DNA of 64,000 bases from contig NZ_JADALJ010000001.1 of assembly GCF_014876185.1 (NCBI RefSeq), positions 1,612,001 to 1,676,000 of the forward strand. The letters are read 5' to 3'. Source of the DNA: Rufibacter sp. LB8 (lineage in GTDB: Bacteria > Bacteroidota > Bacteroidia > Cytophagales > Hymenobacteraceae). Below the pieces are notes generated by a model. That model saw nothing but the letters and a program-made list of their open reading frames with translations. It had not been told where the DNA came from and did no database searches. The number at the start of each line of letters is the position of its first letter. Positions within the stretch are counted from its first letter, which is position 1. This document shows, piece by piece, positions 1,535 to 63,318 of this stretch. A program made the position numbers and the translations under genes.

Positions 1535-1576
1535 TTCCGTTTTTGGCTTCATTTCCCGAAATGGAGCCAAAAACGC
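1535..1576. repeat. Palindromic element A, copy 1
   Basis: The left arm CGTTTTTGGCTTCATTTC pairs with GAAATGGAGCCAAAAACG apart from one position. The usual CGGG/CCCG step is replaced by TGGC/GCCA on both sides, a paired change. It lies upstream of the ABM-like gene. Confidence 0.85.
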
Positions 1577-1636
1577 ATTCTCTTCTTACCTTCGCCCTAC
1601 CAATTCTTAATTCCTAATTCTTAATTTCTAATTAAA

Positions 1637-1927
1637 ATGTTGATACGGCTAGTGCGCATGACCTTTACCGAAGAAAACGTGCCGGCGTTCCTGGAGATTT
1701 TTAAGGCGTCTAGAGACAAGATTGCGGCGTTCCCGGGTTGCAGAAGCGTGGAATTGCTGCAGGATTACCATTTGCCCCACGTGTACAGCACCTACAGCCA
1801 CTGGGACTCTGACGAAGCCTTGAACCATTACCGGAAATCTGAGTTTTTCGGGAGCGTCTGGAAACCCACCAAGGCCTTGTTTTCTGAGCCCGCGCAGGCA
1901 TTTTCCTTCAAGCTTGCTATGGTCTAA
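1637..1927 (+). CDS. Antibiotic biosynthesis monooxygenase-like (ABM) protein
   Basis: This 96-residue protein has the size and pattern of the dimeric alpha/beta ABM fold: an opening strand LIRLVRMTFTEE, a helix with FLEIFKASRDKIAAFPGC, a strand VELLQDY, and YSTYSHWDSDEALNHYRKS at residues 53-71. Members include heme-degrading and quinone monooxygenases but also many proteins of unknown role. No heme-binding pattern can be assigned here, so the reaction is unknown. A second ATG at codon 8 exists, but the first keeps the first beta strand complete. It is flanked on both sides by AT-rich simple repeats and has no operon partner. Confidence 0.65.
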   Translation: MLIRLVRMTFTEENVPAFLEIFKASRDKIAAFPGCRSVELLQDYHLPHVYSTYSHWDSDEALNHYRKSEFFGSVWKPTKALFSEPAQAFSFKLAMV

Positions 1928-2046
1928 TTTCCTTGTACTGTATCTTTCCAGTTGCAAGGCCGTGTATGTGCTTTACACACTCTGCATAACCAACGGTTAG
2001 TTGTGAGCATACATCAGAACAAATTCTTAATTCTTAATTCGTCGTC

Positions 2047-2586
2047 GTGAACTACTTTGAATTTTACCAGATACCGGAAAGCTTCTTGCCCGACGAGATA
2101 GCCATTCAGACCAAATACTACGCCCTGAGCCGCGAGTTCCACCCAGATTTCTACACGCTGGAGCCCCAGGAGAAGCAGCAGGAAATTCTGGAGAAGTCCA
2201 CGCTCAACACCAACGCCTACAAAACGCTCTCCCACGTTGACCGCCGCATGCAGTACATTCTGGAACAGCACGGCCTGTTGGAGGAAGGCGGCCAGAACGA
2301 CCTGCCCCAGGATTTCCTGATGGAGATGATGGAACTGAACGAGCAACTGATGGACCTGGAAATGGACTTTGATAGGCTGCAGTTTAAGGTGGTGGCAGAC
2401 CAAACCCAGGAAATAGAGGGCGCGCTCAAAGCCAGCATCTGGCCCGTGCTGGAAACCTATGAAAGTTTACCACCTGATTCTCAGAAAGAAGCCCTGTTGC
2501 AGGTAAAAAATTATTACCTAAAACAGCGCTACCTCTTGCGAATCAAAGAATCATTGAATAAGTTTGCACCCACTTCAGACGAATAA
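2047..2586 (+). CDS. hscB: Fe-S cluster assembly co-chaperone HscB
   Basis: The 179-residue protein has an N-terminal J domain with HPD at residues 32-34 (context REFHPDFYTL) and a C-terminal three-helix domain (FLMEMMELNEQLMDLEMDFD, then SIWPVLETYESLPPDSQKEA). This is the HscB architecture: it brings the scaffold IscU to the Hsp70 HscA and stimulates its ATPase during iron-sulfur cluster transfer. HscA and the isc genes are not in the window. The start codon is not preceded by a strong Shine-Dalgarno sequence, as is usual in Bacteroidota. The length is normal. It ends just ahead of tRNA-Leu. Confidence 0.9.
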   Translation: MNYFEFYQIPESFLPDEIAIQTKYYALSREFHPDFYTLEPQEKQQEILEKSTLNTNAYKTLSHVDRRMQYILEQHGLLEEGGQNDLPQDFLMEMMELNEQLMDLEMDFDRLQFKVVADQTQEIEGALKASIWPVLETYESLPPDSQKEALLQVKNYYLKQRYLLRIKESLNKFAPTSDE

Positions 2587-2613
2587 ACCTTCTGAAGCTA
2601 CCAGAGAGTACCT

Positions 2614-2694
2614 GCCCAGATGGCGGAATTGGTAGACGCGTTGGTCTCAAACACCAATATCTTTGATGTGCCGGTTCGACTCCGGCTCTGGGTA
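2614..2694 (+). tRNA. tRNA-Leu (anticodon CAA)
   Basis: A cloverleaf can be drawn by hand. The acceptor strands GCCCAGA and TCTGGGT pair with one G-U. The anticodon stem TTGGT/ACCAA encloses the loop CTCAAAC, giving anticodon CAA. The variable arm is long (class II, as expected for Leu), and the T arm is GCCGG-TTCGACT-CCGGC. The discriminator base is A, and CCA is not encoded. Confidence 0.95.
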
Positions 2695-4065: not shown

Positions 4066-5316
4066 ATGAAAATCACACAAAATTTAGTTGCCAGCGGCTT
4101 ACTGTTGGCAGTGTTGGGCTTTGGCTGCAAAAGCACCGAAGACAACCAGGACACTGTAGCCACCAACACCACCAATGCCTGCACCCCGTTAGAGACGCGC
4201 ACCGCCAACTCCCCAGACCAGAAACCAGCCTTTGCCGGACAAACCCGTGCCTGCGCCATGACCTCTACCACCGCATTTCAGGTAGAGACCTTGGCCACCG
4301 GGCTGGAGAAACCCTGGGCCGTGGAACCCTTGCCCAACGGCACCTTATTGGTCACTGAGAAGCCGGGCCGGTTGCGCATCGTGTCGGCTACGGGTCAGGT
4401 GGGGCCAGCCATTAACGGGCTACCGGCCGTAGACCCGCGGGGCCAGGGCGGCTTGCTGGATGTGGCCTTGAGCCCATCGTTTAGCTCAGACAGGACTATT
4501 TACTGGAGTTTTACAGAGCCTCGGGCAGATGGCAACGGCACCAGCGTGGCCCGCGGCGTTTTAAGCCAGAACAACCAGGCCCTGGAACAAGTGCAGGTAA
4601 TTTTCAGGGTGACGCCGTCTTACACCAACAATATGCACTACGGCTCGCGCATCGCGTTTGGGCCAGACAACATGCTGTACCTAACCACCGGCGAACGTTC
4701 TGACCTGGCCACCCGTCCGCAGGCCCAGCAGATGAACAGCCACCTGGGCAAAATCATGCGCATCAACCCGGCCACCGGCGCCGCGCCCCAAGACAATCCC
4801 TTCGTTAACCAATCTGGTTCAAAACCCGAAATATGGAGCGTAGGCCACCGCAACGTCCAGTCGGCGGCGTTTGACCAGAACGGCCGGCTGTGGGTAGTGG
4901 AAATGGGCCCGCAGGGCGGCGATGAATTGAACCTGGTGGAGAAAGGCAAAAACTACGGATGGCCTTTAGTCACTTACGGCGAAGAATACAGCGGTGCTCC
5001 TATCCCCAACGCCGTGACTCAGAAAGCCGGTTTTGAGCAGCCCGTGTATTATTGGGACCCGGTGATTGCCCCGTCTGGTGCGCAGTTCTACACCGGCTCG
5101 GCGTTCCCGGAATGGCGCGGCAACCTGTTTGTGGGCAACATGAAAGACCGCCGCCTGGTGCGCCTGAAAATTGAAAACGGCAAAGTCACCGGCGAAGAAC
5201 ATATGCTAGCCGACAAAGACAAACGCATCAGAGACGTACGCCAAGGCCCAGACGGCGCCCTGTACCTGGTCACCGATGAAACCAACGGCCAACTCTGGAA
5301 AATCTCCCCGCGCTAA
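4066..5316 (+). CDS. PQQ-dependent sugar dehydrogenase, lipoprotein
   Basis: This 416-residue protein has a type II signal peptide ending in LGFGC (Cys21), so it should be a periplasmic or outer-membrane lipoprotein. The mature part is a soluble glucose/sorbosone dehydrogenase beta-propeller (YliI/GSDH family): LEKPWAVEPLPNGTLLVTEK, GGLLDVALSP, HYGSRIAFGPDNMLYLTTGE, IWSVGHRNVQ, GPQGGDELNLVEKGKNYGWP. Family members oxidise aldoses using pyrroloquinoline quinone. The ATG at 4066 is preferred over an in-frame GTG at 4039 because it begins the signal peptide. No PQQ biosynthesis genes are nearby, so the cofactor may be scavenged. Substrate unknown. Confidence 0.85.
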   Translation: MKITQNLVASGLLLAVLGFGCKSTEDNQDTVATNTTNACTPLETRTANSPDQKPAFAGQTRACAMTSTTAFQVETLATGLEKPWAVEPLPNGTLLVTEKPGRLRIVSATGQVGPAINGLPAVDPRGQGGLLDVALSPSFSSDRTIYWSFTEPRADGNGTSVARGVLSQNNQALEQVQVIFRVTPSYTNNMHYGSRIAFGPDNMLYLTTGERSDLATRPQAQQMNSHLGKIMRINPATGAAPQDNPFVNQSGSKPEIWSVGHRNVQSAAFDQNGRLWVVEMGPQGGDELNLVEKGKNYGWPLVTYGEEYSGAPIPNAVTQKAGFEQPVYYWDPVIAPSGAQFYTGSAFPEWRGNLFVGNMKDRRLVRLKIENGKVTGEEHMLADKDKRIRDVRQGPDGALYLVTDETNGQLWKISPR

Positions 5317-5358: not shown

Positions 5359-5402
5359 TTCCGTTTTTGGCTTCGTTTCCAGAAATGAGGCCGAAAACAG
5401 AA
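5359..5402. repeat. Palindromic element A, copy 2
   Basis: The left arm CCGTTTTTGGCTTCGTTTC faces GAAATGAGGCCGAAAACAG. Pairing is imperfect at three or four positions. It sits 43 bp after the sugar dehydrogenase stop codon and before a terminator. Confidence 0.8.
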
Positions 5403-7732: not shown

Positions 7733-7776
7733 TTCCGTTTTCGGGCTCATTTACAGAAATGAGCCCGAAAACGGAA
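7733..7776. repeat. Palindromic element A, copy 3
   Basis: A full consensus copy (outer TTCCG/CGGAA) with central TTTACAGAAA, placed between the convergent nuclease-like and histidine kinase genes. Confidence 0.9.
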
Positions 7777-11229: not shown

Positions 11230-11273
11230 TTCTGTTTTCGGGCTCATTTCTGGAAATGAGCCCGAAAACAGAA
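11230..11273. repeat. Palindromic element A, copy 4, fused to a terminator
   Basis: Here both outer pairs are changed together (TTCTG at the left, CAGAA at the right) while the core stays consensus. The right end overlaps the AAAGAGCC arm of the adjoining terminator. Confidence 0.9.
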
Positions 11274-15723: not shown

Positions 15724-15821
15724 GGGTATTTTATTGTTTGTTTGTGAGGTGATTGGGAACGTTTGAAGGTTGGAAAGTACTAAAGCCGAAGCCCAAATAA
15801 AAGCCCTTACCCAGAGAATCT

Positions 15822-15861
15822 GCGTTTTGGGGCTCATTTCCTGAAATGAAGCCAAAAACGC
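15822..15861. repeat. Palindromic element A, copy 5
   Basis: Variant arms GCGTTTTGGGGCTCATTTC and GAAATGAAGCCAAAAACGC; the inner part is less well paired. It lies upstream of the amidohydrolase operon. Confidence 0.8.
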
Positions 15862-15880
15862 CTGCGTTTGATCTAAAGCA

Positions 15881-19034: not shown

Positions 19035-19077
19035 TTCCGTTTTCGGGCTCATTTCTGAAAATGAGCCCGAAAACGGA
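19035..19077. repeat. Palindromic element A, copy 7
   Basis: A consensus copy with centre TTTCTGAAAA, about 20 bp after the sbcD stop codon. Confidence 0.9.
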
Positions 19078-19310
19078 TTTTTTATTGAAAGCCATTTTTG
19101 ATTCTATATTCCACTGGCTTTCTTCCCTTTCACTTCAATTTCTCTCTTAAGCATTTTTTAATTTCTGGTAGAATCCTGCCGGGTTTTCCTTTTTTATACT
19201 TCCTGAAAATCATTAATAATGAGTATTGATTTCATTTAATGGCTCTAGTAATTTGCGACTTTGTTATTTCCTCAAACACAAAGGTTGTGTTCCACCTAAT
19301 TTAAAAACGC

Positions 19311-22814: not shown

Positions 22815-22858
22815 TTCCGTTTTCGGGCTCATTTCCAGAAATGAGCCCGAAAACGGAA
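22815..22858. repeat. Palindromic element A, copy 8
   Basis: A full consensus copy with centre TTTCCAGAAA, 20 bp past the end of gabD, between convergent genes. Confidence 0.9.
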
Positions 22859-26308: not shown

Positions 26309-26344
26309 AGAAGCGCCACCTCCCAGAAGTGGCGCTTCGTTTTT
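26309..26344 (+). terminator. Catalase terminator
   Basis: The stem AAGCGCCAC/GTGGCGCTT has its T-tail continuing directly into the arm of a degraded palindromic element. Confidence 0.85.
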
Positions 26345-26377
26345 GGGCTCTGTTTTGGAAATAGGAGCGAAAACGGG
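26337..26377. repeat. Degenerate palindromic element A fused to the catalase terminator
   Basis: TTCGTTTTTGGGCTC and GAGCGAAAACGGG are recognisable around a changed centre (TGTTTTGGAAATAG). Confidence 0.6.
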
Positions 26378-26378
26378 A

Positions 26379-26940: not shown

Positions 26941-27876
26941 ATGACCCCGCAAAACCTCACCGCCACCGCCCAACGAATTCAACCCTACATTCACCGAACT
27001 CCCGTCCTCACGTCCAGATTACTGAATGAAATTGCAGGCGCGGAGGTCTTTTTCAAATGCGAGAATTTCCAGCGGATGGGGGCTTTTAAAATGCGCGGAG
27101 CCATGAACGCGGTGTTGCAATTATCTGACGCGCAAAAAGCGAAGGGCGTAGTCACGCATTCCTCGGGAAATTTTGCGCAGGCATTGGCGTTGGCGGCGCA
27201 GAGCGTGGGCGTGAAAGCCTACATTGTCATGCCCCAGAATGCGCCGCAGGTAAAGAAATACGCGGTGCGCGGCTATGGCGGCGAAATCATTGAGTGCGAA
27301 TCTACACCCGAAGCGCGGGAACAAGTGGCGGCGCAGGTGCAGCAGGAGAAAGGCGCTTTTTTCATCCATCCCAGCAATGATTTGGACGTAATTCTTGGCC
27401 AGGGAACCGCTGCGCTGGAACTGCTGGAGGACCAACCACAACTTCAAACTATTTTCTCCCCGGTGGGCGGCGGCGGTCTGATTGCGGGTACGGCGTTGGC
27501 AGCGCACTACTTCGGGAAGAATTGCCAGGTAGTGGGCGGCGAACCGTTTGGTGCGGATGACGCGTACCGGTCTTTGCAGAGCGGGAAGATTGAGGGAAAT
27601 AACACCACCAACACCATCGCAGACGGCCTGAGAACCCAATTAGGCGACATCAATTTTCCTATCATCAAAAATCACGTGACCAAAATTATACGGGTGGACG
27701 AAGAGGAAATCACAGCGTCCATGAAACTGATCTGGGAACGTTTGAAAGTGGTGGTGGAGCCTTCCAGCGCCGTGGCGTTTGCAGCTTTGCTGCGGGAGAA
27801 AGAAGCCTATCAAGGGCAGAAAGTGGGCGTCATTCTCTCCGGCGGAAACGCGGACTTGAGCAAACTTCCGTTTTAG
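26941..27876 (+). CDS. PLP-dependent threonine/serine dehydratase (serine racemase-like)
   Basis: The 311-residue protein is a fold-type II pyridoxal phosphate enzyme. The Schiff-base lysine is Lys50 in ENFQRMGAFKMRGA, the substrate loop is THSSGNFAQALALAA, and the phosphate-binding loop is VGGGGLIAGTALAAH. It lacks the C-terminal regulatory ACT domain of biosynthetic IlvA. This puts it with catabolic threonine deaminases and serine racemases, which this sequence cannot separate. Its last codons (CTT CCG TTT TAG) are the left arm of a palindromic element, which supplies the stop codon. It has no operon partners. Confidence 0.85.
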   Translation: MTPQNLTATAQRIQPYIHRTPVLTSRLLNEIAGAEVFFKCENFQRMGAFKMRGAMNAVLQLSDAQKAKGVVTHSSGNFAQALALAAQSVGVKAYIVMPQNAPQVKKYAVRGYGGEIIECESTPEAREQVAAQVQQEKGAFFIHPSNDLDVILGQGTAALELLEDQPQLQTIFSPVGGGGLIAGTALAAHYFGKNCQVVGGEPFGADDAYRSLQSGKIEGNNTTNTIADGLRTQLGDINFPIIKNHVTKIIRVDEEEITASMKLIWERLKVVVEPSSAVAFAALLREKEAYQGQKVGVILSGGNADLSKLPF

Positions 27877-27910
27877 GGCTCGTTTCTGGAAATGAAGCCA
27901 AAAACAGGAA
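27866..27910. repeat. Palindromic element A, copy 12, overlapping a stop codon
   Basis: The left arm TTCCGTTTTAGGGCTCGTTTC carries A where most copies have C, which makes the TAG stop of the dehydratase. The right arm GAAATGAAGCCAAAAACAGG does not compensate for this change. Confidence 0.85.
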
Positions 27911-29148: not shown

Positions 29149-29182
29149 AAAAAGCCAGCTTCTAACCTAGAGGCTGGCTTTT
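29149..29182 (+). terminator. Alcohol dehydrogenase terminator
   Basis: The stem AAAAGCCAGC/GCTGGCTTTT; the final TT is the first two bases of a palindromic element. Confidence 0.85.
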
Positions 29183-29224
29183 CTGTTTTCGGGCTCATTT
29201 CTGAAAACGAAGCCGAAAACGGAA
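29181..29224. repeat. Palindromic element A, copy 13, fused to a terminator
   Basis: The left outer bases are TTCTG and the right ones CGGAA. The centre is TTTCTGAAAA, followed by CGAAGCCGAAAACGG. Confidence 0.85.
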
Positions 29225-29418: not shown

Positions 29419-29422
29419 CTTT

Positions 29423-29465
29423 TTCGTTTTCGGGCTCATTTCTGGAAACGAGGCCCAAAACAGAA
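29423..29465. repeat. Palindromic element A, copy 14
   Basis: The left arm CGTTTTCGGGCTCATTTC is consensus and the right arm is GAAACGAGGCCCAAAACAG. It lies 50 bp upstream of the hydrolase start; a longer upstream frame would merely translate it. Confidence 0.85.
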
Positions 29466-33369: not shown

Positions 33370-33414
33370 TTCCCGTTTTCGGGCTCATTTCCAGAAATGG
33401 GCCCGAAAACAGAA
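33370..33414. repeat. Palindromic element A, copy 15
   Basis: Arms CCCGTTTTCGGGCTCATTTC and GAAATGGGCCCGAAAACAG with centre TTTCCAGAAA. It lies about 70 bp upstream of a gene start, a less usual position. Confidence 0.85.
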
Positions 33415-34646: not shown

Positions 34647-34690
34647 TTCCGTTTTCGGGCTCATTTCCAGAAATGAGGCCGAAAACGGAA
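34647..34690. repeat. Palindromic element A, copy 16
   Basis: Full length, with one mismatch in the right arm (GAGGCC for GAGCCC). Its ATG (34673) opens an in-frame extension of sbcC that is unlikely to be real. Confidence 0.9.
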
Positions 34691-34753: not shown

Positions 34754-37700
34754 GTGAAGATACTTTCCGTCCGTTTTTTCAACCTCAACTCGCTGCAGGG
34801 CGAGCACCACGTTCAGTTTAATGAACCGCCGCTGAGCGAGAGCGGCCTGTTTGCCATTACCGGGCCCACGGGCGCCGGCAAAACCACCATTCTAGACGCC
34901 ATCACGGTGGCCTTGTACGGGCAGGTGCCGCGCCACGGCAAAGACGTAGCCGAAATCATGACGCGCCACACCGGCGAGTGCTGGTCTGAAGTGGAGTTTG
35001 AAGCCCAGGAGAAAACTTATCGGGCGCGATGGAGCCTCTGGCGCAGCCGCAGCAAACCAGACGGCAAGCTGCAGTCGCCCGCCATGGAACTCGTAGACGC
35101 GGCCACCCAGGAAGTGCTGGAAAGTAGGCTCACCGAAACCAAACAGCGTATCATAGACCTCTGCGGCCTGGACTTTCAACAGTTCCTGCGGTCAGTGATG
35201 CTCAGCCAAGGCGATTTCACCCGGTTTCTCAAAGCTAACGAAAACGAGCGCAGCGAACTCCTAGAGAAACTCACCGACACCCGCATCTATTCCCAGATTT
35301 CCATGGCCGCGTTTGAGAAAGCCAAGGCCGAAAAACAGAAACTCCTGGATTTGCAGCTCCTGTTGCAAGCCGACCAATTACTGCCAGAGGAAGAGCGCGC
35401 CGCCCTGGAGCAGGAAGCCGCCACCATACAAGCCAACGCCGACCTGGCCCACCACCAACTCCTGCGGCACCAGGCGCAACAGACCTGGCTGCAGCTACTG
35501 GAGAAACTTCAGCAGAAAGAAAGTGCCTTAACCCAGCAACTCACCCAAGCCAAAACCCAGGAACTGGCCTGGCAACCATCGCGTGACCGCCTTGCGCGGC
35601 ATGACGAGGCCCAACCGTTTCAGGCCGCGCTGGCCAGGCTTTCTGAGGTGCAACGCCATGGCCAGGAACTCCACCAGACCGTTCAGCAACTGCAGGAACA
35701 ATTGCCCGCGCAGAAAGAACTGGTGCAACAGCTCGCTACTTCTTCTGAAGCCGCGGCGCAGGCACACGCCCTAGGCCAGGAAACGCTCAAGACCGCCGAG
35801 CCCCGCCTGGACCAGGTGTTGCAGCTAGACTCAAAACTGGCGGCGCAACAAGAGCAGTTCGGTAAAGACCGGCAGGTAGCCGAGCAACTGGAGAAAGAAG
35901 TGCGGCAACTTACCTCCACCTTAGAACAACAACAAATACTGCTGCAGGAAGTGGAGCAGGCCCAAGGGCAACTGGCTACCTGGCTGCTGGCCAACCAGCA
36001 AGACGAGGAATTAACCAACAGCCTCGCGGAACTCAAAGCCGAAGCCCGCAGCCTGCGTGAGATCAGAGTTCTTAAGCAAAAGTTTCAGCAGGAAAAAGCT
36101 GATTTCGGGCTCATTTCTGAAAATGAGGCCAAAAACGCCAGCGCGCTGCAAACCAAATTAGCCGCCACCCAAAATACCCTGCAACAACACCGCGACCTGC
36201 TGCAGAATCTGCAGAAACAAATGCAACAAGCCTTGCAGGGCCAGGAACCCGAAGCGCTGGAACAACTTTGCCACAGCCTTCCATCGGTGTGCAGCCAGCT
36301 GGAGAAACAGTTGCATCTGAGCAAGGCTTACGTGCAATTAGAGGAACAGCGGCAAACCCTGCAAACCCAACTAGCCCGCACCACGGGAGATTTGCATGCC
36401 CAGCGCAAAGCCCTCGCGGAAACGCAGGTGCTGTACGCCCAGGCCCTTGACAAACAGAAAGACCTGCAGCAGATTGTAGATTTACAACGCCAGATCCAGA
36501 AATACGAAGATGCCCGGGCTCAGCTTCAGCCAGAAGAACCGTGCCCGTTGTGCGGCGCTTTGCACCATCCGTTTGTGGAGGCGCATCAGCCCCTCACGCT
36601 CTCAGCCGCCGAACAGAACCTGCAGGCCCAGCAAAAAGTAGTGCAGCAATATGACCAGCAGGAACGCAACCTGGCCGCGGCCATCCATAAACTGGAAGTG
36701 GCGGAGCAGCACACCCAGGAGAAAGCCGCGCAATTGGCTACTAACGCAGAGCAGTTGCTCCAGCAGTTTCAGCAGGTGAACACCGCCCTGGACCTGGCGC
36801 ACCAAATTGCCAGCGCAGACACCATTGACCTTTACTGGAACGCGCGTAAAACCGAACTGCAGCAAGCCACCACCACCTTGGAGGGCATCCGGAGCCAACG
36901 CGCCAAAACCGAACAGGCTCGCCAGCAGGAGCAACATCTGCTGTCTGAGGAACAGAAACTAAGACATGCCCTGGAAATTTCCACGGAAAAACGCAGCGCC
37001 GCGCAAATACAATTAAACCGCCTGCAGCAGGAATTGGTAGATCTGGCCGAACAGGAACAAGTGGTCTCCGGTACCGTGCGTGGCTTTTTTGCCACGTATG
37101 GCCTTACGTACACTGGAACCAACGGTGCCGAATTAATGGCCCTGCTGGAAACGCGTCGTCAAACGTTTGAGCAGAAAAAAGCCCAGCAAGCAGCGTTACG
37201 CGAGAAATTTCTGACCGCCAAAAACCAGGTAGAGAATGGTTCTACCACCAAAGGTGAAAAGCAAAAAGAACTGGAGCAACGCCAGCAATTGGTGCGCACC
37301 TCGCAGGAACACTTACAGAAACTGACAGACCAGCGTCACCAACTGTTACCGGCAGACCTTCAACCTCAGCAAGAAAAGCAGCGCTTGCAACAAGCCCTGC
37401 AAGAAGCCGGTCAGGCCCTGCAAAAAGCTGAGGCCGAACTACAAAAAGAACAGGCCCATGTAAACCAACTCATCGCGCGGCTGTCAGACAAAACCAAAGA
37501 ACATCAAGCCAACGCCCAAAGCCAGACCGCGCAGGAAGCACAACTGCTGCACCAGATACAACCGCTGGGCTATCAAGCGCTGACCGACTTACAGGCTATC
37601 TTATTGCCAGAGGCGGAGGCCCGGGCACTAAGAATGGAGCAGGAGCAACTGCAAAAAGCCTTAACCCAACTGGAACACAGCCTGCAGGAAACATCCGCAG

Positions 37701-39167: not shown

Positions 39168-39170
39168 AAT

Positions 39171-39210
39171 CCCGTTTTCGGGCTCATTTCTGGAAATGAG
39201 CCCGAAAACG
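39171..39210. repeat. Palindromic element A, copy 18, abutting the amt stop codon
   Basis: Consensus arms; the element ends at 39210 and the amt stop codon (TGA on the minus strand) occupies 39211-39213. It separates convergent genes and no other terminator is seen. Confidence 0.9.
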
Positions 39211-40518
39211 TCACACTTTTTCATCATGCTGCGATAAGTCAAGCCCCAGGGCTTCCTCCTCCATAGACACGCGTAACGGCGAGATAAGGTTAGTTACCTT
39301 GAGCAGCACCCAGGAACCTGCAAACGCGAAAATAGAAACACCTATCATGGCACCCAACTGCACCAGAAACAGGCGGGTTTCCCCAAAGAACAAGCCTTGC
39401 TCGGTGAGAGCGGGGTTCACATTTTTGCTGGCGAACACACCCGTGAGCAACATGCCCACCATGCCGCCCACCCCGTGGCACGGAAACACATCCAGGGTGT
39501 CATCTAAAGAAGTCCGGGACCTATAATCAACCAGCAGGTTACTGATCACAGCGGCCACCACGCCAATCACCAGAGAATGCGGCAATGACACGAAACCGGC
39601 CGCCGGCGTAATGGCCACCAAACCCACCACGGCCCCAATGCAGGTGCCCAAGGCGCTGGGTTTCTTTCCTTTCACGGCATCAAAGAAAATCCAGGCCAAG
39701 GCGGCGGCGGCAGAAGCAGTCATGGTGGTGGCCAGCGCGGTGGCGGCCAACGTATTCGCGCCCATGGCAGAGCCCGCGTTGAACCCAAACCATCCAAACC
39801 ACAGCAGCCCCGTGCCCAGGAGCACAAAGGTGACCATGGCCGGTGAATGGCTCACCTTGTGCCGCCGTTTTAAACAGATGGCAGAAGCCAGCGCCGCCCA
39901 GCCCGCCGACATGTGCACCACCGTTCCGCCCGCGAAATCCAGCACGCCCAATTTAAACAGCAGGCCTTCTGGGTGCCAGGTGGCATGGGCCAGGGGCGCG
40001 TAGATGAACACAAAAAACAACAAGATGAACACCGTGTAAGACGTGAACCTAATGCGTTCGGCAAAGGCCCCGGTGATAAGCGCCGGCGTGATGATGGCGA
40101 ACTTCAATTGAAACATGGCAAACAAGGCCAGCGGAATAGTGGGTGCCAGGGCCCAGGGCGCACCGTCCAATACGTTTCGCATCATGAAAAACGTGCTTGG
40201 GTCGCCAATGACACCGCCAATAGAATCGCCGAAGGCCAGGCTGAAGCCAAAGACCACCCACACCACCGCCACCAGCGCCATGCAAATAAAACTCTGCAGC
40301 ATGGTGGAGATGACATTCTTGCGGTTGACCATGCCCCCGTAGAAAAAGGCCAGGCCCGGCGTCATGATCAGCACCAACGCGGCGGCGGTCAGCATCCAGG
40401 CGGTATCGGCTTGGTTTAGGTCATAGGCTTTCGCTACTCCGGAAGCTGAGGGGAACGCCAGGGCCAGCACCACCACGGCCACCAATAAAATGAAGGGAAT
40501 TTTTGAGAGTTTCGTCAT
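39211..40518 (-). CDS. amt: Ammonium transporter
   Basis: The 435-residue inner-membrane protein is a full-length Amt/Rh channel of about eleven helices. It shows DTAWMLTAAALVLIMTPGLA (helix 1), FFYGGMVNRKNV, FAGGTVVHMSAGWAALASAI (with the first pore His of the HSAG-like motif), WFGWFGFNAGSA, and FPCHGVGGMVGMLLTG (second pore His). It should conduct ammonia/ammonium. Usual partners glnB/glnK are not adjacent. ATG 40518 is chosen over 40554 because it begins the first helix. Its 3' end touches a palindromic element. Confidence 0.93.
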   Translation of the reverse strand: MTKLSKIPFILLVAVVVLALAFPSASGVAKAYDLNQADTAWMLTAAALVLIMTPGLAFFYGGMVNRKNVISTMLQSFICMALVAVVWVVFGFSLAFGDSIGGVIGDPSTFFMMRNVLDGAPWALAPTIPLALFAMFQLKFAIITPALITGAFAERIRFTSYTVFILLFFVFIYAPLAHATWHPEGLLFKLGVLDFAGGTVVHMSAGWAALASAICLKRRHKVSHSPAMVTFVLLGTGLLWFGWFGFNAGSAMGANTLAATALATTMTASAAAALAWIFFDAVKGKKPSALGTCIGAVVGLVAITPAAGFVSLPHSLVIGVVAAVISNLLVDYRSRTSLDDTLDVFPCHGVGGMVGMLLTGVFASKNVNPALTEQGLFFGETRLFLVQLGAMIGVSIFAFAGSWVLLKVTNLISPLRVSMEEEALGLDLSQHDEKV

Positions 40519-41669: not shown

Positions 41670-41712
41670 TTCCGTTTTCGGGCTCATTTCTGGAAATGAG
41701 CCCGAAAACGGA
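41670..41712. repeat. Palindromic element A, copy 19
   Basis: A perfect consensus core between the convergent nuclease and EamA transporter genes. Confidence 0.92.
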
Positions 41713-41772
41713 TGGAGAAGCAGAAGGTAATCCGTTATTGAACTAAGGTTTACCGAAGGGTGGCTACAGAAT

Positions 41773-44285: not shown

Positions 44286-44329
44286 TTCCGTTTTAGGGTT
44301 CATTTCTGGAAATGAGCCCCAAAACGGAA
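44286..44329. repeat. Palindromic element A, copy 20
   Basis: The left arm CCGTTTTAGGGTTCATTTC and right arm GAAATGAGCCCCAAAACGG show an A/C mismatch and a G-T wobble position. It lies 8 bp past the end of the HNH gene. Confidence 0.85.
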
Positions 44330-46040: not shown

Positions 46041-46062
46041 TTTACTTGCTGCTTGTTGATGG

Positions 46063-46104
46063 CCGTTTTCGAGCTCGTTTCCAGAAACGAGCCCGAAAAC
46101 GGAA
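46063..46104. repeat. Palindromic element A, copy 21, fused to a terminator
   Basis: Arms CCGTTTTCGAGCTCGTTTC and GAAACGAGCCCGAAAACGG. The inner ATTTC/GAAAT pair is replaced on both arms by GTTTC/GAAAC, a paired change. Confidence 0.9.
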
Positions 46105-47872: not shown

Positions 47873-47916
47873 TTCCGTTTTCGGGCTCATTTCTGGAAAC
47901 GGAGCCGAAAACGGAA
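47873..47916. repeat. Palindromic element A, copy 22
   Basis: Five base pairs after the thioredoxin stop codon; the right arm is GAAACGGAGCCGAAAACGG. It is the only hairpin there and may act as terminator. Confidence 0.88.
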
Positions 47917-48122: not shown

Positions 48123-48165
48123 GAACAGCAGAGAAAGTGATGGCCTGGCCTCAAACAGTTAAAAG

Positions 48166-48208
48166 TCCGTTTTTGGCTTCGCTTCTGTAAATGAGCCCGA
48201 AAACGGAA
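48166..48208. repeat. Palindromic element A, copy 23
   Basis: The left arm TCCGTTTTTGGCTTCGCTTC is of the TGGC subtype, while the right arm AATGAGCCCGAAAACGGA is of the CCCG subtype: a hybrid with mismatched arms. Confidence 0.85.
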
Positions 48209-50220: not shown

Positions 50221-50238
50221 GGTGTTTAAGGTGTAGTA

Positions 50239-50280
50239 TCCGTTTTCGGGCTCATTTCTGTAAATGAGCCCGAAAACGGA
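50239..50280. repeat. Palindromic element A, copy 24
   Basis: Consensus copy with centre TTTCTGTAAA, the only hairpin after the M61 gene. Confidence 0.92.
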
Positions 50281-50405
50281 TTTCTTCTTTTGCCGGGTTC
50301 GTAGGGGAAAACCCAGCATGAGCGGTCAAGTAGAGGTGTCTTTTTGAAAACCCGGGGCCAGGAGCCAGGCATCCGCCAAAAGAAGAGACTGTGGCTGGTT
50401 CTGTT

Positions 50406-53862: not shown

Positions 53863-53910
53863 AAAAAGCCTCCGCTTGATTTCCCCCACGGGCATCAAGC
53901 GGAGGCTTTT
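53863..53910 (+). terminator. Terminator of the TonB receptor operon
   Basis: The stem AAAAGCCTCCGCTTGAT/ATCAAGCGGAGGCTTTT is a strong hairpin whose T tail runs directly into a palindromic element. Confidence 0.9.
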
Positions 53911-53952
53911 CTGTTTTCGGGCTCATTTCTGGAAATGAGCCCTAAAACGGAA
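53909..53952. repeat. Palindromic element A, copy 25, fused to a terminator
   Basis: The left arm TTCTGTTTTCGGGCTCATTTC faces GAAATGAGCCCTAAAACGG, with an unpaired C/T. Confidence 0.9.
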
Positions 53953-53980
53953 ATCTCAATGGACTATTAAGATTTACTTC

Positions 53981-54138
53981 ACGCATCTCGTCCCCCTTTG
54001 AAGGGGGTAGGGGGATGATAAGGCCAGTTGTAGGCCCGACTACTAACTAATTTTAACAAGAAAGTCTGATTCTCGGGAAAGCAAATTCATTTAAAGTCAT
54101 CATCCCCCTACCCCCTTCAAAGGGGGACGAAATGCGTG
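53981..54138. repeat. Family C inverted-repeat element, copy 1 (158 bp)
   Basis: The 39-bp ends (left ACGCATCTCGTCCCCCTTTG then AAGGGGGTAGGGGGATGAT; right the inverse, ending GACGAAATGCGT) enclose about 80 bp. The interior contains GATTCTCGGGAAAGC, close to the family B interior. No coding capacity. Confidence 0.8.
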
Positions 54139-54171
54139 TTGATTTTCATTCACTAATACTATTCTTCAAGT

Positions 54172-54217
54172 AAAGCCCCGGTCTGAAATCCTTACAGGAA
54201 ATCAGGCCGGGGCTTTT
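54172..54217. terminator. Hairpin terminator downstream of pnp
   Basis: The stem AAAGCCCCGG/CCGGGGCTTT encloses a smaller inner hairpin. It lies beyond the palindrome that follows pnp. Confidence 0.75.
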
Positions 54218-54258
54218 CTGTTTTAGGGCTCATTTCTGGAAATGAGCACTAAAACGGG
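54216..54258. repeat. Palindromic element A, copy 26, fused to a terminator
   Basis: The left arm TTCTGTTTTAGGGCTCATTTC and right arm GAAATGAGCACTAAAACGGG carry paired A/T at the position that is usually C/G, plus one mismatch. Confidence 0.85.
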
Positions 54259-54271
54259 TTGCCATAGCTAC

Positions 54272-55090: not shown

Positions 55091-55114
55091 GTTGCGTAAT
55101 GGTTGGTGGGCGCC

Positions 55115-55157
55115 GCGTTTTGGGCGGCGTTTCACAAATGTAGCCCGAAAACGGAAA
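55115..55157. repeat. Degenerate palindromic element A upstream of pnp
   Basis: GCGTTTTGGGCGGCGTTTC and TGTAGCCCGAAAACGGAA keep the layout of the element, with a damaged centre. Confidence 0.6.
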
Positions 55158-55250
55158 ACATGAAGAAAGCGCCCCTGTTAATCTTTTCACGTTGCCAAGG
55201 CAGCGGTTGGTTCACATACTTCCGGGCTTTCTTGCACCGGTAGTGACAGA

Positions 55251-55294
55251 TTCGTTTTTGGCCTCATTTCTGGAAATGAGCCCCAAAACAGGAA
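55251..55294. repeat. Palindromic element A, copy 28
   Basis: Arms CGTTTTTGGCCTCATTTC and GAAATGAGCCCCAAAACAGG. It ends two bases before the TAA of the downstream lipoprotein gene. Confidence 0.88.
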
Positions 55295-59100: not shown

Positions 59101-59975
59101 AGAATGGCGTTTTCCAGCAACGCTCCCTCCTGCCGCCGCTCCGGCGGTTTGCGCTGAATCAGTTTCTTGTTGCCCACCTTAGTTTCCTCCAGCCCGATGA
59201 GGTGCAGCAATTCACTGTAAAAGCCTTTGTCTAAGCTGTTGCTGTCATTGGTGAACGGCAGCTTGAGCAAATGCACCGGGCTCAGAATCTTGTAGAGGCC
59301 AATGAGTTGGTTGTCGTCTTTCTGGTTTTGGTTACGCAGCGCCTTCTCAAAATCCTTGAGGTTGAAATAGGTGAAAGGCAGTTCCTCGGGCAGCGTGTCT
59401 AGAAAAGGTTTGGCAATCTCTTTGTAGAAATGGTCTGTGTTGTTGCTTACTTTCTGGCCGGTTTTCCAGGCGTCATAGTCCTTTTTGAGCTGCGTATTCT
59501 TCCCAAACAGCCGCTCAAAATCCTGCGCGTCAAATACAAACCACTCGTAAATGTTGGTGATGACCAGGTGGCGCATGTCGGTGTTCTGGCCGTCTAGCCG
59601 TTCGCGCAGGTAATACAAGATGAGTTCGTGCAGGGCCTTGGCGTTCAGGTTGGTTTTGGTCACCATGTCACTCTTGTTGCTGTGCCGTTTCACCTCAAAC
59701 AGCACGCCCGCCGGGGTTTTGGCCTCTTTGCCCGTGTGCAGCACGAAATCTGTCTTGCCCTTGGTGGCCACCAAATGGTCTGGGTTGTAGAAGGTATTTT
59801 TGAGGAAATCCATGAGGTGGCCTTTCACGTTTTCCTCGGTTTCTTTGTCATCAATGCGGTTCAGGAGCTGCACCAGATTGCCCTTGAACACCTCCATGGC
59901 GGCGCGTTTGGGTTTGATGAGGCGGTAGGCTTTGTTCAGGCGTTGCTTAATAGAAGATGGCGTGGCAGAAATCAT
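56142..59975 (-). CDS. Type IIG (Eco57I-like) restriction enzyme-methyltransferase
   Basis: The 1277-residue protein combines three parts. The N-terminal nuclease domain has the PD-(D/E)XK residues TDFVLHTG...GVLFEVKRHS (near 94). The gamma-class adenine methyltransferase has motif I CDPAVGSGHF (near 555) and motif IV GNPPYLRLRDD (near 896). The C-terminal target recognition domain runs from about 903 to 1228 and is encoded by distinctly AT-rich DNA (56290-57265). Such single-chain enzymes both methylate and cut beside their site. Between motifs I and IV (residues about 680-705) an in-frame palindromic repeat adds PHPKSLPNGEGLSSAPLSVG and more. Start ATG 59975; a TTG at 60002 is less likely. 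Confidence 0.88.
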   Translation of the reverse strand: MISATPSSIKQRLNKAYRLIKPKRAAMEVFKGNLVQLLNRIDDKETEENVKGHLMDFLKNTFYNPDHLVATKGKTDFVLHTGKEAKTPAGVLFEVKRHSNKSDMVTKTNLNAKALHELILYYLRERLDGQNTDMRHLVITNIYEWFVFDAQDFERLFGKNTQLKKDYDAWKTGQKVSNNTDHFYKEIAKPFLDTLPEELPFTYFNLKDFEKALRNQNQKDDNQLIGLYKILSPVHLLKLPFTNDSNSLDKGFYSELLHLIGLEETKVGNKKLIQRKPPERRQEGALLENAILTIESEDRLRKLNPPSAYGATEEERLFTVALELCITWVNRILFLKLLEAQLIKYHRGGAGYKFLNYATIPQYDELNKLFFQVLARRPEQRTGAIQQKYGHVPYLNSSLFEPTELEDDIIRVNSLDDMTTLPLHPNTVLRDAKNKPVAQSLNALEYLLRFLDAYDFASEGREEIQEESKTLINAAVLGLIFEKINGYKDGSIYTPGFITMYMCRQAIRLAVVQKFNEAYNWQAQNFDDLKNYLADHKSAAKILEFNALLNSLHICDPAVGSGHFLVSALNELIAVKAELKLLADYKGVRLTEHDVSIENDELIVTDLHTQDIFEYTVSPAAQGKGLYIAPETQRVQQTLFHEKQTIIENCLFGVDINPNSVKICRLRLWIELLKNAYYLPHPKSLPNGEGLSSAPLSVGEGPGVGLSSPVCYASAAGLRDGFAQVSNQPELQTLPNIDINIKQGNSLLSRFGLDTDLSEALRGTKYSVAQYRSFVQEYKNSHNKDRKRELETIINHIKADFRTEIQRNDPKVKRLQKLTGELQVLTTQIPMFEPSAKEKKTRKQQQQKLEQDIAALSTGIDEIKSNAIYRNAFEWRFEFPEVLDNDGNFAGFDVVIGNPPYLRLRDDKTSIRNYFLKNYTSAENQLDLYHLFIERAKMIAHQESVISFIIPNTFLGNENCKNLRKFILENLKLYSIIDFKKQVFDDASVEVVIANFKLTGSNDNGSYIILDDNGFREVNKFSAEKFRENTNYNFTITLDAGLISVIDKINSKSQRVEDLFDVISGVKEYQIGKGTPKQTEIEVKGRVFNSNVKLDETYLPELRGKNILNYIVKWNNEYLSYGKWLAEPRQFYQFLGAKILIRQIPGSTKLVVAYTSDDFIVDQTAYVAKLKSKNDDYIKVVLALLNSKLVFWYFQNTNNEFDKLFPKIKTKEFKSLPLFKFENSLDQNDIIVLVTQILDLKKENPQADTASLERQIDQLVYQLYDLTPEEIALVEAS
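57860..57938. repeat. Family D-like palindrome inside the type IIG gene
   Basis: The 79-bp palindrome (CCCCACCC...CCCCTCCCCAACGGAGAGGG and the inverse TCCCTCTCCGTTGGGGAGGG...GGGTGGGG) has an 11-bp centre. It is translated in frame on the minus strand without any stop. Confidence 0.85.
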
Positions 59976-60103: not shown

Positions 60104-60147
60104 TTCCCGTTTTTGGCTTCATTTCCAGAATTAAGCACAAAAACGGA
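60104..60147. repeat. Palindromic element A, copy 29
   Basis: The left arm CCCGTTTTTGGCTTCATTTC is intact while the right arm (GAATTAAGCACAAAAACGG) has decayed. Confidence 0.75.
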
Positions 60148-60170
60148 CTATTGTGTTTCGGACTATTGTG

Positions 60171-60254: not shown

Positions 60255-60266
60255 GCATTTCTGATT

Positions 60267-60428
60267 CACGCATTTCTTCCCCCTTTGAAGGGGTTGGGGG
60301 ATGATCACTCTTCTCGGTTACAAGCATTCCCGAGATATTTTTTTGTAAGGGGCTATTCCACTAGCTGATGGTTCTTCAAACTGCCTTGTCATCCCCCTAC
60401 CCCCTTCAAAGGGGGACGGAATGCGTGT
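60267..60428. repeat. Family C inverted-repeat element, copy 2 (162 bp)
   Basis: The left end CACGCATTTCTTCCCCCTTT and the inverted right end (TTCAAAGGGGGACGGAATGC) match copy 1 at 53981-54138. The interior differs in sequence but holds GCATTCCCGAGA, the inverse of the TCTCGGGAATGC word in family B. Confidence 0.8.
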
Positions 60429-60492
60429 TTGAACAATTGAAAAACTTAGGCTGACGAAAGAATTTTTTGAAAGGGATTTTCCTAAGCCGCCT

Positions 60493-60534
60493 GCGTTTTG
60501 GGGCTCATTTCCGGAAATGAGCCCCAAAACGGAA
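60493..60534. repeat. Palindromic element A, copy 30
   Basis: GCGTTTTGGGGCTCATTTCC and GGAAATGAGCCCCAAAACGG form a nearly perfect palindrome, with CGGG/CCCG replaced on both sides by GGGG/CCCC. Confidence 0.92.
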
Positions 60535-61486: not shown

Positions 61487-61536
61487 AGTTTTAGAATTAA
61501 GGTTAAAAAAATTGGGGGATATACTACTTGTGAAAA

Positions 61537-62016
61537 TTATGCTTGGGAGGGTGCCGCACCGGCCTGGTCATGGCTGGTGCGCTCAATAATGATTTCTTCT
61601 TTCTTGAGGGTGACGTGCTGCACCTCTTGGGTGGTGACCTGCTGCTTGGTGATGTGCAGTTCCTCTACCACCATGAGGCGTTTTTCTACCACCAGCACCT
61701 CCTGCAGAATAGGAATGATCATGGTATTGCCCTCATGGCGAATGGGCGGGGGCGGCGTCTCTACAAACTGGTTAACCGGCACCCGCTGAATGTCATGCTC
61801 TTCCTGCAACAAGGGTAAGTTCACCGGCACTTGCTGCTCATTGACAATCTTGGTGATTTTTACATTACCACGTTCCACCACCTCTTTGTCAATCATTACC
61901 TTTTCCTCTATCACTGGAATGATGGTGGAAGCGCCGTCCTGGGAAGCAGTGTGTTGTTGCTCCCTTGCCCGAGGATCATTGCCTGATGTATGAGATTGGT
62001 TAGGGGTAGGTTCCAT
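61537..62016 (-). CDS. DUF2382 (YsnF-like) protein, short
   Basis: The 159-residue protein consists of a short polar N-terminus (MEPTPNQSHTSGNDPRAREQ) and DUF2382 repeats: IIPVIEEKVMIDKEVVERGN, VPVNLPLLQEEHDIQRVPVN, then IIPILQEVLVVEKRLMVVEE. Strand-rich, with no signal peptide. It probably acts in the same stress response as its two neighbours; the upstream gap of about 265 bp is AT-rich and may carry a promoter. Confidence 0.75.
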   Translation of the reverse strand: MEPTPNQSHTSGNDPRAREQQHTASQDGASTIIPVIEEKVMIDKEVVERGNVKITKIVNEQQVPVNLPLLQEEHDIQRVPVNQFVETPPPPIRHEGNTMIIPILQEVLVVEKRLMVVEELHITKQQVTTQEVQHVTLKKEEIIIERTSHDQAGAAPSQA

Positions 62017-62282
62017 TGGCTCGTTTTATAAAAGGCTAAACGGCAATGGCTTTGATTGGTTTGATATTTTTGTATTTTTTAATTACTATCTTAATCATAC
62101 AAAATATAAACTCTGCTTAAAACCACATTATCCACAAGCAACTATTTGAATTACAGATCATTTAAGGAAACCCAGTTTAATTACACCTGGAAACCGCTAT
62201 TAATACCAATATGACTATATTAATAATTCTGAATTTTTAACCTTTACCATTTTTAACTGGAAAAGGCATGTGCTTAAAGAGT

Positions 62283-63065
62283 TTATTTGGTGTTTTCAGG
62301 TGTAGATGTGGGATCTGCATCCGGCGAGGTGGAGTTGAATAGCTGTACATCTACGGCTGTGCTACGGGCGGAAGTGTGCACGTGGGTTTCTTGCTCATCG
62401 GTTTCTTTGTGGAGGACTACCTCCTCCACCACAAAAGCCTGCTTGGTCACCACCGGTATCTCGGTTAGCTCTGGCAAGACAAGGGCACCTTCCTGAAAAG
62501 GGCGCAAAGAAGCTTTTTCCGCAGCGGGCCCCAGAGGCACTTCCGTAATTTGCTTCTCCACAGGTGTTAGCGTAATTTCTGGAATAGGCTTTCTTAGCGT
62601 GGCTGGCTCATGCTGGTCAATTATACCATTTGGCAAGTCTGGCGCTTGGCCCGGGAGCGCGGAGCCTGGCACATGCACATGGCCCTCCATAAACACCCGC
62701 AGCACCATGGTCTCCATGGCAGACGTCACCTGGCCTTTTTCATAGGCGGGCAACGCCAACAACTGTTGTTCCGGCACATGCGGCACCAGCACCGTTCTTT
62801 CTGGGGCTTGCAGTACGCTGGGCCCCACCGGCACCAAGACAGCGTAAGGCGGTTGATTTTGTTCCGTTGCCAGAGCCACCACCAGGTAACTGGCTTTCTG
62901 AGCCGCGCGGTCAATCAGTAATTCGGTCACGTTTCCTACCAGCAGACCCTGGGTGGTGACCACCTGCCAACCCCGTACATCGGGCTCCCCTTGCCGCACC
63001 TGGTAGTCACTATCGCCTAATTCCAGCAAATGACTGCTCCTAGAACCTACCTCTCTATTCTCCAT
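62283..63065 (-). CDS. PRC-barrel plus DUF2382 stress protein
   Basis: The 260-residue protein has an N-terminal PRC-barrel (VRGWQVVTTQGLLVGNVTEL, LIDRAAQKASYLVVALA). A central linker with a GHVHVPGSALPGQAPDLPNG stretch follows, then a C-terminal DUF2382 part (LPELTEIPVVTKQAFVVEEV, VLHKETDEQETHVHTSARST). PRC-barrel with DUF2382 is the classic AvaK layout in cyanobacteria and Bacteroidota. First gene of the three-gene stress cluster. Function not established. Confidence 0.8.
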   Translation of the reverse strand: MENREVGSRSSHLLELGDSDYQVRQGEPDVRGWQVVTTQGLLVGNVTELLIDRAAQKASYLVVALATEQNQPPYAVLVPVGPSVLQAPERTVLVPHVPEQQLLALPAYEKGQVTSAMETMVLRVFMEGHVHVPGSALPGQAPDLPNGIIDQHEPATLRKPIPEITLTPVEKQITEVPLGPAAEKASLRPFQEGALVLPELTEIPVVTKQAFVVEEVVLHKETDEQETHVHTSARSTAVDVQLFNSTSPDADPTSTPENTK

Positions 63066-63274
63066 GTTATCTATTTTTTAAGCCGGACCGTAAAGCCCCG
63101 TTGAATAAAACACTCGCCGCCGACGCCAACTTTTACTTCTGAAAAAGAACACCAGGTTGCCTTGCACCAACCGCCGCCAGCCTAGTAAATACGAGGCCTT
63201 TCCGTAGTTGTTAAGATTATTATGTTTTGGAAAGTATGCCACATGTTAAGAAGGCCCTGAAGAGTAGAAAAGGC

Positions 63275-63318
63275 TTCCGTTTTCAGGCTCATTTCTGAAA
63301 ATGAGCCCAAAAACGGAA
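63275..63318. repeat. Palindromic element A, copy 31
   Basis: The left arm TTCCGTTTTCAGGCTCATTTC and right arm AAATGAGCCCAAAAACGGAA have mismatches at two positions. Confidence 0.88.

Follow-up and report, generated by a model that had tools for sequence, protein, structure and literature searches.

A genus-wide palindromic DNA site beside gene ends in Rufibacter, which may dock a putative DNA-binding protein

Why does one short palindrome recur between the genes of a 64,000-nucleotide stretch of Rufibacter sp. LB8, an environmental bacterium (contig NZ_JADALJ010000001.1, positions 1,612,001 to 1,676,000; this whole stretch is called the window), and is it a mobile repeat, an RNA hairpin or a site on double-stranded DNA? 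The element is a palindrome of 36-44 bp, intergenic and mostly adjoining gene ends, carried by this strain and its sister species. Its arm, CGTTTTCGGGCTCATTTC, matched the window 44 times at up to 3 mismatches, against 0.11 expected from 100 shuffles, and the dispersed intergenic family described in a first-pass annotation is therefore well above chance. Ungapped repeat families in the window comprised a 60-mer with 26 copies and a 43-mer with 29 copies. A generic 36-mer pattern recovered 28 copies at no more than 3 mismatches and 4 further ones at 4-6 (at least three of them at 5), which bears out the 26 clear and 5 decayed palindromes first reported, and gave no match in 30 dinucleotide-block shuffles. 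The outermost 44-mers lie at 1535-1578 and 63275-63318. The copies listed are the following, with no strand assigned (strand.) and with offsets counted from the stop codon where genomes G017, G022 and G060 are named.

1535..1578, strand., element, tandem gap, gene 1658-1927 follows at 83 bp (generic-pattern scan)
5359..5402, strand., element, tandem gap, stop of 4066-5316 is 46 bp earlier (generic-pattern scan)
7733..7776, strand., element, convergent gap (generic-pattern scan)
11230..11273, strand., element, tandem gap, 3' end of 11322-12695(-) at a distance of 52 bp
15820..15863, strand., element, tandem gap (generic-pattern scan)
19035..19078, strand., element, tandem gap, stop 24 bp earlier
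22815..22858, strand., element, convergent gap (generic-pattern scan)
26335..26378, strand., decayed element with 3 mismatches, tandem gap
27866..27909, strand., element overlapping the stop codon of 26941-27876; offset -7 also in G017 and G022
29181..29224, strand., element immediately 3' of an intrinsic terminator hairpin
29422..29465, strand., element, tandem gap (generic-pattern scan)
33371..33414, strand., element, divergent gap (generic-pattern scan)
34647..34690, strand., element, tandem gap upstream of sbcC
36097..36140, strand., match within sbcC (generic-pattern scan)
39170..39213, strand., element, 43-bp convergent gap; offset 1 after the stop also in G017 and G060
41670..41713, strand., element, convergent gap (generic-pattern scan)
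44286..44329, strand., element, 3' end of 44338-44646(-) at a distance of 12 bp
46061..46104, strand., element, convergent gap (generic-pattern scan and syntenic-gap comparison)
47873..47916, strand., element, stop 8 bp earlier
48165..48208, strand., element, tandem gap (generic-pattern scan)
50238..50281, strand., element, 21 bp past the stop of 48346-50220; offsets 24 in G017 and 23 in G022
53909..53952, strand., element right behind an intrinsic terminator hairpin, the T-tract running into GTTTT
54216..54259, strand., element immediately 3' of an intrinsic terminator hairpin
55113..55156, strand., diverged element (generic-pattern scan)
55250..55293, strand., element, 3' end of 55297-56121(-) at a distance of 7 bp
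60105..60148, strand., diverged element (generic-pattern scan)
60491..60534, strand., element with G/C at pair 10 (GGGG/CCCC) (generic-pattern scan)
63275..63318, strand., element, tandem gap (generic-pattern scan)

The match within sbcC has a weaker counterpart (2-4 mismatches) at about the same place in all 7 congener stretches listed, four of which hold a second in-gene match further on; these sbcC matches are probably coding coincidences. The window also contains GTAG-type repeats, separate from the 44-mer, at 1328-1352 and 1433-1457.

The host-species consensus, built from 170 of 176 copies at up to 9 mismatches, reads TTCCGTTTT...AAAACGGAA, and can be written as a pair of inverted half-sites, each (c)cGTTTTnGGsyTsnTTTy, that enclose a 2-bp centre. 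In 329 of 369 copies this centre, which the first-pass annotation had also given as 2 nt, consists of a pyrimidine followed by a purine (TG 154, CA 142, CG 25, TA 8; 369 of 370 copies used). The stem, given there as 21 bp, is not uniform: GTTTT/AAAAC and the inner TTT/AAA hardly vary at all, and several other columns vary freely, one of the underlying counts using the 147 of 176 copies whose centre is TG or CA. The spacing between half-sites is rigid, a single spacer serving 159 of 166, and isolated half-sites are nearly absent (18 outside elements, 405 inside). The features expected of a sequence-specific dimer site, namely two equal half-sites, a fixed spacing and constraint on each half, are thus present. 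Unique palindromic flanks extend 5-16% of the copies, some of these being intrinsic terminators with the element at their apex.

A genome-wide scan, as the first-pass annotation had advised, shows that the family is not confined to the window: the host genome carries 658 exact arms and 1,866 copies (about 1,870) of the generic pattern. All 16 Rufibacter genomes possess the element, with 269-2,007 copies each, G006 with 269 and G057 with 433 being poor in them; the pattern was drafted after copies in 20-kb stretches of the same species had been viewed, and the counts favour these species by those few copies. Outside the genus, 0-4 copies were found in 84 other genomes of the family and 0-2 in 177 other genomes of the order, close to the 0-3 matches of a reversed-pattern control. 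An exact-core scan of 84,980 species, a set that may leave out the source genome or a near relative, returned no stretch. In agreement with the statement that no named family has this sequence, the literature searched yielded no match, and the only known RNA family (Rfam) in the window is a tRNA. Recently acquired DNA is poor in the element, with 5 copies against 65 expected on a second, plasmid-like contig and none in a 20-kb conjugative-transposon stretch.

Copies had been described as lying almost only at gene ends, in all classes of gap. They are indeed intergenic, only 16 of 370 falling inside called genes, but one lies in sbcC and the gap classes are unequally served. Among gaps of at least 40 bp in 884 kb of chromosome, copies occupy convergent ones most often (79 of 93), tandem ones less often (175 of 322) and divergent ones least (28 of 91), these counts excluding 16 of the 370 copies at stretch edges together with the 16 in genes, and relying on gene calls from our own codon-usage script rather than an established caller, with rough start sites. 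Genes face the element within 30 nt by their 3' side in 155 of 408 cases and by their 5' side in 18 of 268. Such gene-end placement could be mere tolerance. Neighbouring terminator hairpins were read on a set of 180 elements in 404 kb of sequence. Of 93 elements accompanied by a canonical terminator, 75 are situated past it and hence outside the mature mRNA. Canonical terminators are equally frequent with and without the element (convergent 52/150 and 7/20; tandem 41/175 and 26/127), so nothing here shows a role in termination. Rho was present in all 41 family genomes searched, 8 of them Rufibacter, leaving no obvious gap for the element to fill, and the idea of a substitute for a lost Rho was rejected.

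The copies are conserved in place. Where both orthologues of a gene are followed by an element within 170 nt, the offsets agree within 3 nt in 42 of 100 cases, against a null mean of 8.4 and maximum of 16 in 1,000 randomisations. Between the host and other species, 40 gene pairs were compared, and in 14 of them the offset from the stop agrees within 3 nt (3.3 under the null, at most 11 in 5,000). In the closest pair of species, G017 and G022, both carry the element in 24 cases, one only in 0 and 10, and neither in 38 (p 1.6e-11). Identity between the two is 0.93 in core columns, 0.77 in variable columns and 0.53 and 0.46 in the flanks, which have diverged between species. Counting against the case, only tandem gaps reach significance when syntenic gaps are compared (13 both, 5 and 3 one only, neither in 16; p 0.0008; each own gap entered once per species); convergent (7, 9, 0, 3; p 0.26) and divergent gaps (0, 3, 2, 10; p 1) do not. 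Seven discordant G017/G022 gaps held a copy with 4-5 mismatches in four cases, a half copy in two and nothing in one. Although many copies stay in place, their letters change together. At half-site position 16, C occurs in 369 of 382 host half-sites and G is the commonest letter in all 7 congeners with at least 15 copies; in 18 in-register orthologous pairs the host has C in 36 of 36 arms, and the other species show G 29 times, A 4 times, C twice and T once. The element therefore differs from species to species, as dialects, with many copies remaining where they were; several nodes of the tree are weakly supported.

These data bear on the repeat-based explanations. The first-pass annotation had seen a REP-like family and named a RAYT as an example of its mobilising enzyme. 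A REP-like or MITE-like element that a RAYT or some other transposase once dispersed, and that has since largely ceased to move, would account for short palindromes present by thousands in gaps, for the unequal copy number across species and for gaps in which one species only has the element. High-copy, short, intergenic palindromes are also what the available text of PMC3733652 describes for REP/REPIN, mainly in convergent and tandem gaps and downstream of coding regions, but the present element is longer, with two equal arms at rigid spacing, and is inherited in place. RAYT-like genes are absent from the window among the genome matches listed, as had been stated, and ten distinct ones lie elsewhere in the host genome. 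Other short palindromes flank nine of these ten, six on both sides (34 and 2 of 120 control genes), whereas the 44-mer flanks 5 of 46 RAYT-like genes on both sides within 300 bp, the figure for ordinary genes being 23 of 251, with the controls coming from the host species only and 36 of the 46 loci from other species, some of them poorer in the element. With an association not above background, mobilisation by RAYT was rejected. The five loci are L004, L196, L199, L201 and L230; L196 and L201 hold the same RAYT in two species, behind the same gene (which we take to be methylmalonyl-CoA-mutase-like), whose terminator contains the element, and by eye these RAYTs carry GAGTCT-type palindromes of their own. 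Furthermore, G017, with 1,341 copies, has no RAYT above the NCBIfam cut-off and no Y1_Tnp match, and inspection of species consensus half-sites revealed no GTAG or CGTC tag. Target-site duplication was not seen in 369 copies (best value 0.314, null 0.297, perfect repeats rare), and the arms vary almost independently, unlike those of copies made from one master (mean z 1.4 across arms, 18.8 for same-arm neighbours). Shared positions, dialect change in place and the degraded or half copies in 6 of 7 discordant gaps point the same way, and we consider a mobile origin of this kind improbable; of the earlier reading, the large dispersed palindrome family stands and the RAYT-mobilised REP does not. 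A selfish or mutational repeat, its arms homogenised by template switching or gene conversion and serving no cellular function, would fit the extended unique palindromes and the covariation of outer pairs, which resemble template switching between arms. Homogenised arms should nevertheless covary at inner pairs too, and most do not; conversion between 40-bp repeats with unrelated flanks seems implausible, and invariant GTTTT next to free columns is left unexplained; we consider this explanation improbable as well.

A function in RNA, as a 3' untranslated hairpin terminating transcription or shielding mRNA from 3' exonucleases, would agree with the proximity to stop codons and with a minority of copies that form the apex of a classical terminator hairpin ending in a T-tract. 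In such copies base pairing persists across species, as in G022 and G012 behind one and the same gene. The outer pairs covary mildly (in the host pairs 1, 2, 4 and 10, z 3.3-6.1; a few single pairs elsewhere), and the hairpins lose a little stability when arms are swapped (from -20.3 to -19.0 kcal/mol, p 0.05). Against this, most inner pairs show no covariation, and compensatory change on the RNA strand was not found: in transcription orientation G-U pairs are no commoner than A-C (373 and 361, p 0.68; within 60 nt of the stop 215 and 201), unlike in the REPs of PMC3733652, where the available text interprets abundant GT pairs as pointing to a function of the RNA. Instead of a GC-rich hairpin followed by a T-run, the consensus has a T-rich 5' arm and an A-rich 3' arm; because this polarity is opposite to that of intrinsic (Rho-independent) terminators, the copies are not ordinary ones, even though both are palindromes after genes. 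The first-pass annotation had held that copies at the same place in distant genomes would mark conserved terminators; constancy of place is largely what we find, the polarity of a terminator is not. Most copies lack a U-tract and occur independently of canonical terminators, usually beyond them, divergent gaps carry the element too, no Rfam family matches it in the window, and Rho is at hand. We therefore reject an RNA hairpin as the main target of selection, the covarying outer pairs and the terminator-merged minority counting against that rejection, and regard an RNA-level function as doubtful. In a DNA uptake sequence, the cell would prefer DNA with the element and recombination would keep it common. 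Dialects, thousands of copies, in-place drift and inverted pairs near terminators recall the Neisseria DUS and other DUS/USS (PMC3630211, available text), and depletion in the plasmid-like contig and conjugative element would fit. Uptake sequences are, according to the same text, single short words often within genes, whereas the element is a rigid two-arm unit, almost wholly intergenic, with hardly any lone half-sites. Such a role is unlikely, and we give it a very slim chance.

On balance, and with confidence near the midpoint, we regard the palindrome as a genus-wide DNA site rather than a currently mobile repeat, most likely read by a putative dimeric sequence-specific protein. The data show its architecture, copy number, restriction to the genus, conservation in place, joint change of dialect and lack of an RNA-strand signature, whereas both the protein and its job are inferred. 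Since the palindrome is unlike known jumping repeats in its behaviour, it may be the docking site of a putative DNA-binding protein, which would recognise it as symmetric double-stranded DNA, with selection keeping sites mostly beside gene 3' ends. The preference of this protein would drift by species, and with it the letters of some 2,000 sites would change jointly in place. The most likely job would be a boundary just past the gene end, either a topological insulator or a protein roadblock supporting transcription termination from both sides. E. coli BIMEs are bound by gyrase and IHF, and gene-end palindromes have been proposed as topological sites; the element resembles them in this suggestion but has another sequence and build, and conservation in place with dialects was found for it. 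As for roadblocks, DNA-bound LacI, CcpA, CodY, Fis and Tus are described as stopping RNA polymerase in the available text of PMC10310618, which is the mode proposed here past a gene; those proteins are regulators or dedicated systems, whereas that of the element is only putative, and no bacterial genome-wide gene-end roadblock system was seen in that text. More tentatively, and a little short of an even chance, Rufibacter would possess a dedicated gene-end system, in which a putative genus-confined dimeric protein occupies roughly 1,000-2,000 sites per chromosome just beyond genes and terminators, forming a boundary that acts in both directions on RNA polymerase or supercoiling. The protein would co-evolve with its sites so closely that every species has a dialect of its own, thousands of sites having been rewritten without moving.

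If the palindrome proved to be selfish or mutational, it would show that a 40-bp repeat needs no RAYT mobility to hold its place and change in concert, and the reading of REP-like families would change. If instead one protein binds these sites, Rufibacter would offer a bacterial analogue of genome-wide boundary factors; it would also be a tractable system in which a protein and some 2,000 sites shift specificity together, for which the dialects of 16 species already supply the comparison.

The high density of the palindrome family claimed in the first-pass annotation proved real, as the window holds 44 arm matches against 0.11 expected, 26-29 ungapped copies of the palindrome and 28 copies of a generic pattern (GTTTWNGVSYKNNTTTYNNRAAANNMRSBCNWAAAC, at most 3 mismatches) that was found 0 times in 30 shuffles. 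A whole-genome scan shows that the element extends beyond the window, which lies within the 4.59-Mb contig of a 4.75-Mb, two-contig genome. There are 339 exact arms on one strand and 319 on the other, 667 own-type palindromes (at most 3 mismatches) and 1,866 copies of the generic form; 404 kb of this genome contain 176 copies with at most 10/38 mismatches. The exact own-type palindrome is nearly restricted to Rufibacter sp. LB8, with 0-3 occurrences in 15 congeners and 0 in 134 other genomes of the family; scanning 84,980 species, possibly without the LB8 genome among them, for the exact core found nothing. Over four concatenated proteins, LB8 is 0.62-0.69 identical to congeners. The 20-kb stretches examined in congeners carry palindromes of the same build in different letters, and the generic pattern is present in 269-2,007 copies in each of 16/16 genus genomes. 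Outside the genus it has 0-4 matches per genome in 84 members of the family and 0-2 in 177 further members of the order; the same pattern read backwards gave 0-3 matches. In one genus of the family, g3, matches slightly exceed this reversed control (up to 4 in genome G082), possibly as remnants or by transfer. In two Rufibacter genomes, G006 and G057, the copies are sparse (269 and 433) and heterogeneous, possibly through natural loss of a maintaining factor. No description of the family was found in the open-access collection searched, which omits most subscription journals, and the main text of RepRanger (PMC12306157) does not mention Rufibacter.

Within the element, almost no variation is seen in GTTTT, in the inner TTT or in their mirror-image counterparts, and the remaining columns are freely variable. 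The spacer between outer blocks is 14 in 159/166 cases, the centre is pyrimidine-purine in 329/369 copies, and 405 half-sites lie inside elements vs 18 outside. Neighbouring columns are strongly coupled within one arm (mean z 18.8) and hardly across opposite arms (1.4), except for the centre and the pair 10/35. In some copies one inner arm reads GTTTAGAGCC in place of GAAATGAGCC, a possible sub-type:
own-genome region A, 78842, copy with GTTTAGAGCC inner arm
own-genome region A, 79185, copy with GTTTAGAGCC inner arm
window 24385-24428, copy with GTTTAGAGCC inner arm

If a transcribed hairpin were under selection, G-U should exceed A-C on the transcribed strand. No such excess was detected in 208 tandem-gap copies (373 vs 361, p 0.68) or in copies within 60 nt of a stop (215 vs 201, p 0.52). 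Covariation was absent for most inner pairs in all six species tested, with outer pairs 1-4 and 9-10 covarying in several, and arm-swapped chimeras fold nearly as well as the observed copies (-19.0 vs -20.3 kcal/mol, p 0.05). The constraint therefore falls mainly on each half-site as DNA, the outer symmetry being a weaker tendency. Unique flanks extend the palindrome in 5-16% of copies (null at most 1.2%), which sometimes makes it a classical terminator.

Placement was assessed on 370 copies in 884 kb, counting gaps of at least 40 bp. Copies occupy 79/93 convergent, 175/322 tandem and 28/91 divergent gaps, with densities of 3.44, 2.08 and 0.88 per kb, respectively, and lie within 30 nt of the gene end on 155/408 3'-facing vs 18/268 5'-facing sides. 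A strong hairpin ends within 9 nt of the element in 24/204 3'-facing flanks, 2/140 5'-facing flanks and 1/344 shuffled ones (smaller sample, 180 elements). Canonical terminators (0/472 in shuffled sequence) are equally common with and without an element at convergent (52/150 and 7/20) and tandem ends (41/175 and 26/127). At ends that have both, the terminator is followed by the element in 75/93, at a median of 18 nt, 24 of them within -5 to +4 nt. An element-like match also lies inside sbcC (window 36097-36140), and 7/7 congeners compared have a weaker one in nearly the same position; it is probably a coding coincidence, or else a genuine in-gene site.

The first-pass annotation had named a RAYT transposase as an example of the mobilising enzyme, which it found absent from the window. 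The LB8 genome does encode 10 distinct RAYT-like genes, and other palindromes flank 9/10 of them, on both sides in 6 (control genes, 34/120 and 2/120). RAYT mobilisation of the present element is not supported: it stands on both sides of 5/46 RAYT-like genes vs 23/251 controls, the congener G017 carries 1,341 copies with no RAYT above the cut-off and no Y1_Tnp match, and target duplication was looked for at the element and not found. The element is scarce in acquired DNA: the second contig has 5 copies vs 65 expected, and none lies in a 20-kb stretch (L184, C1:3400001-3420000) carrying the CTnDOT-type conjugative-transposon genes TraG, TraJ and TraM. The window also holds a second, ordinary repeat family, made up of inverted pairs of GTAG-type REPs (GTAGGGACAGG...CCTGTCC) of the kind adjoining a RAYT-like gene in locus L009, and two further dispersed repeats of CCCCCTTTGAAGGGGG type (89-98% identity over 36-41 bp):
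window 1328-1352, GTAG-type REP
window 1433-1457, GTAG-type REP
window 63448-63484, GTAG-type REP
window 53978-54140, CCCCCTTTGAAGGGGG-type repeat
window 60265-60429, CCCCCTTTGAAGGGGG-type repeat
A 1,286-residue frame (window 56142-59975, minus strand) has weak similarity, below family cut-offs, to BREX PglX-type and Alw26-type DNA methyltransferases.

Comparison of orthologous gaps, proposed in the same annotation, indicates that elements are shared in place across species: downstream offsets agree within 3 nt in 42/100 orthologous genes (null 8.4), and in 14/40 between LB8 and other species (null 3.3). In the closest pair, G017/G022 (proteins 87% identical on average), an element is present in both genomes at 20 syntenic gaps, in neither at 17 and in one only at 7; in 6/7 discordant gaps the other species has a copy with 4-5 mismatches or a half copy. 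Core columns of this pair are 93% identical and flanks about 50%. A test of syntenic gaps in LB8 against other species reached significance in tandem gaps alone.

The consensus differs from species to species. In LB8, 369/382 half-sites have C at position 16, and G is commonest there in 7/7 congeners with at least 15 copies. In 18 in-register orthologous pairs, some LB8 sites being counted for more than one species, this dialect letter is C in 36/36 LB8 arms and G in 29, A in 4, C in 2 and T in 1 of the others, and position 17 is A in LB8 and T in the other species in 24/36. Since orthologous sites differ in the dialect letters, the change took place at existing sites, which a shifted preference of a putative protein would explain most simply. 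In some copies the terminator T-tract and the element abut directly, a point to explain under a bound-protein view, because polymerase would reach the protein while still on the T-tract. For this conserved, symmetrical DNA site we favour a model in which a putative dimeric protein would sit on the element at gene ends and act as a boundary, possibly as a roadblock or insulator.
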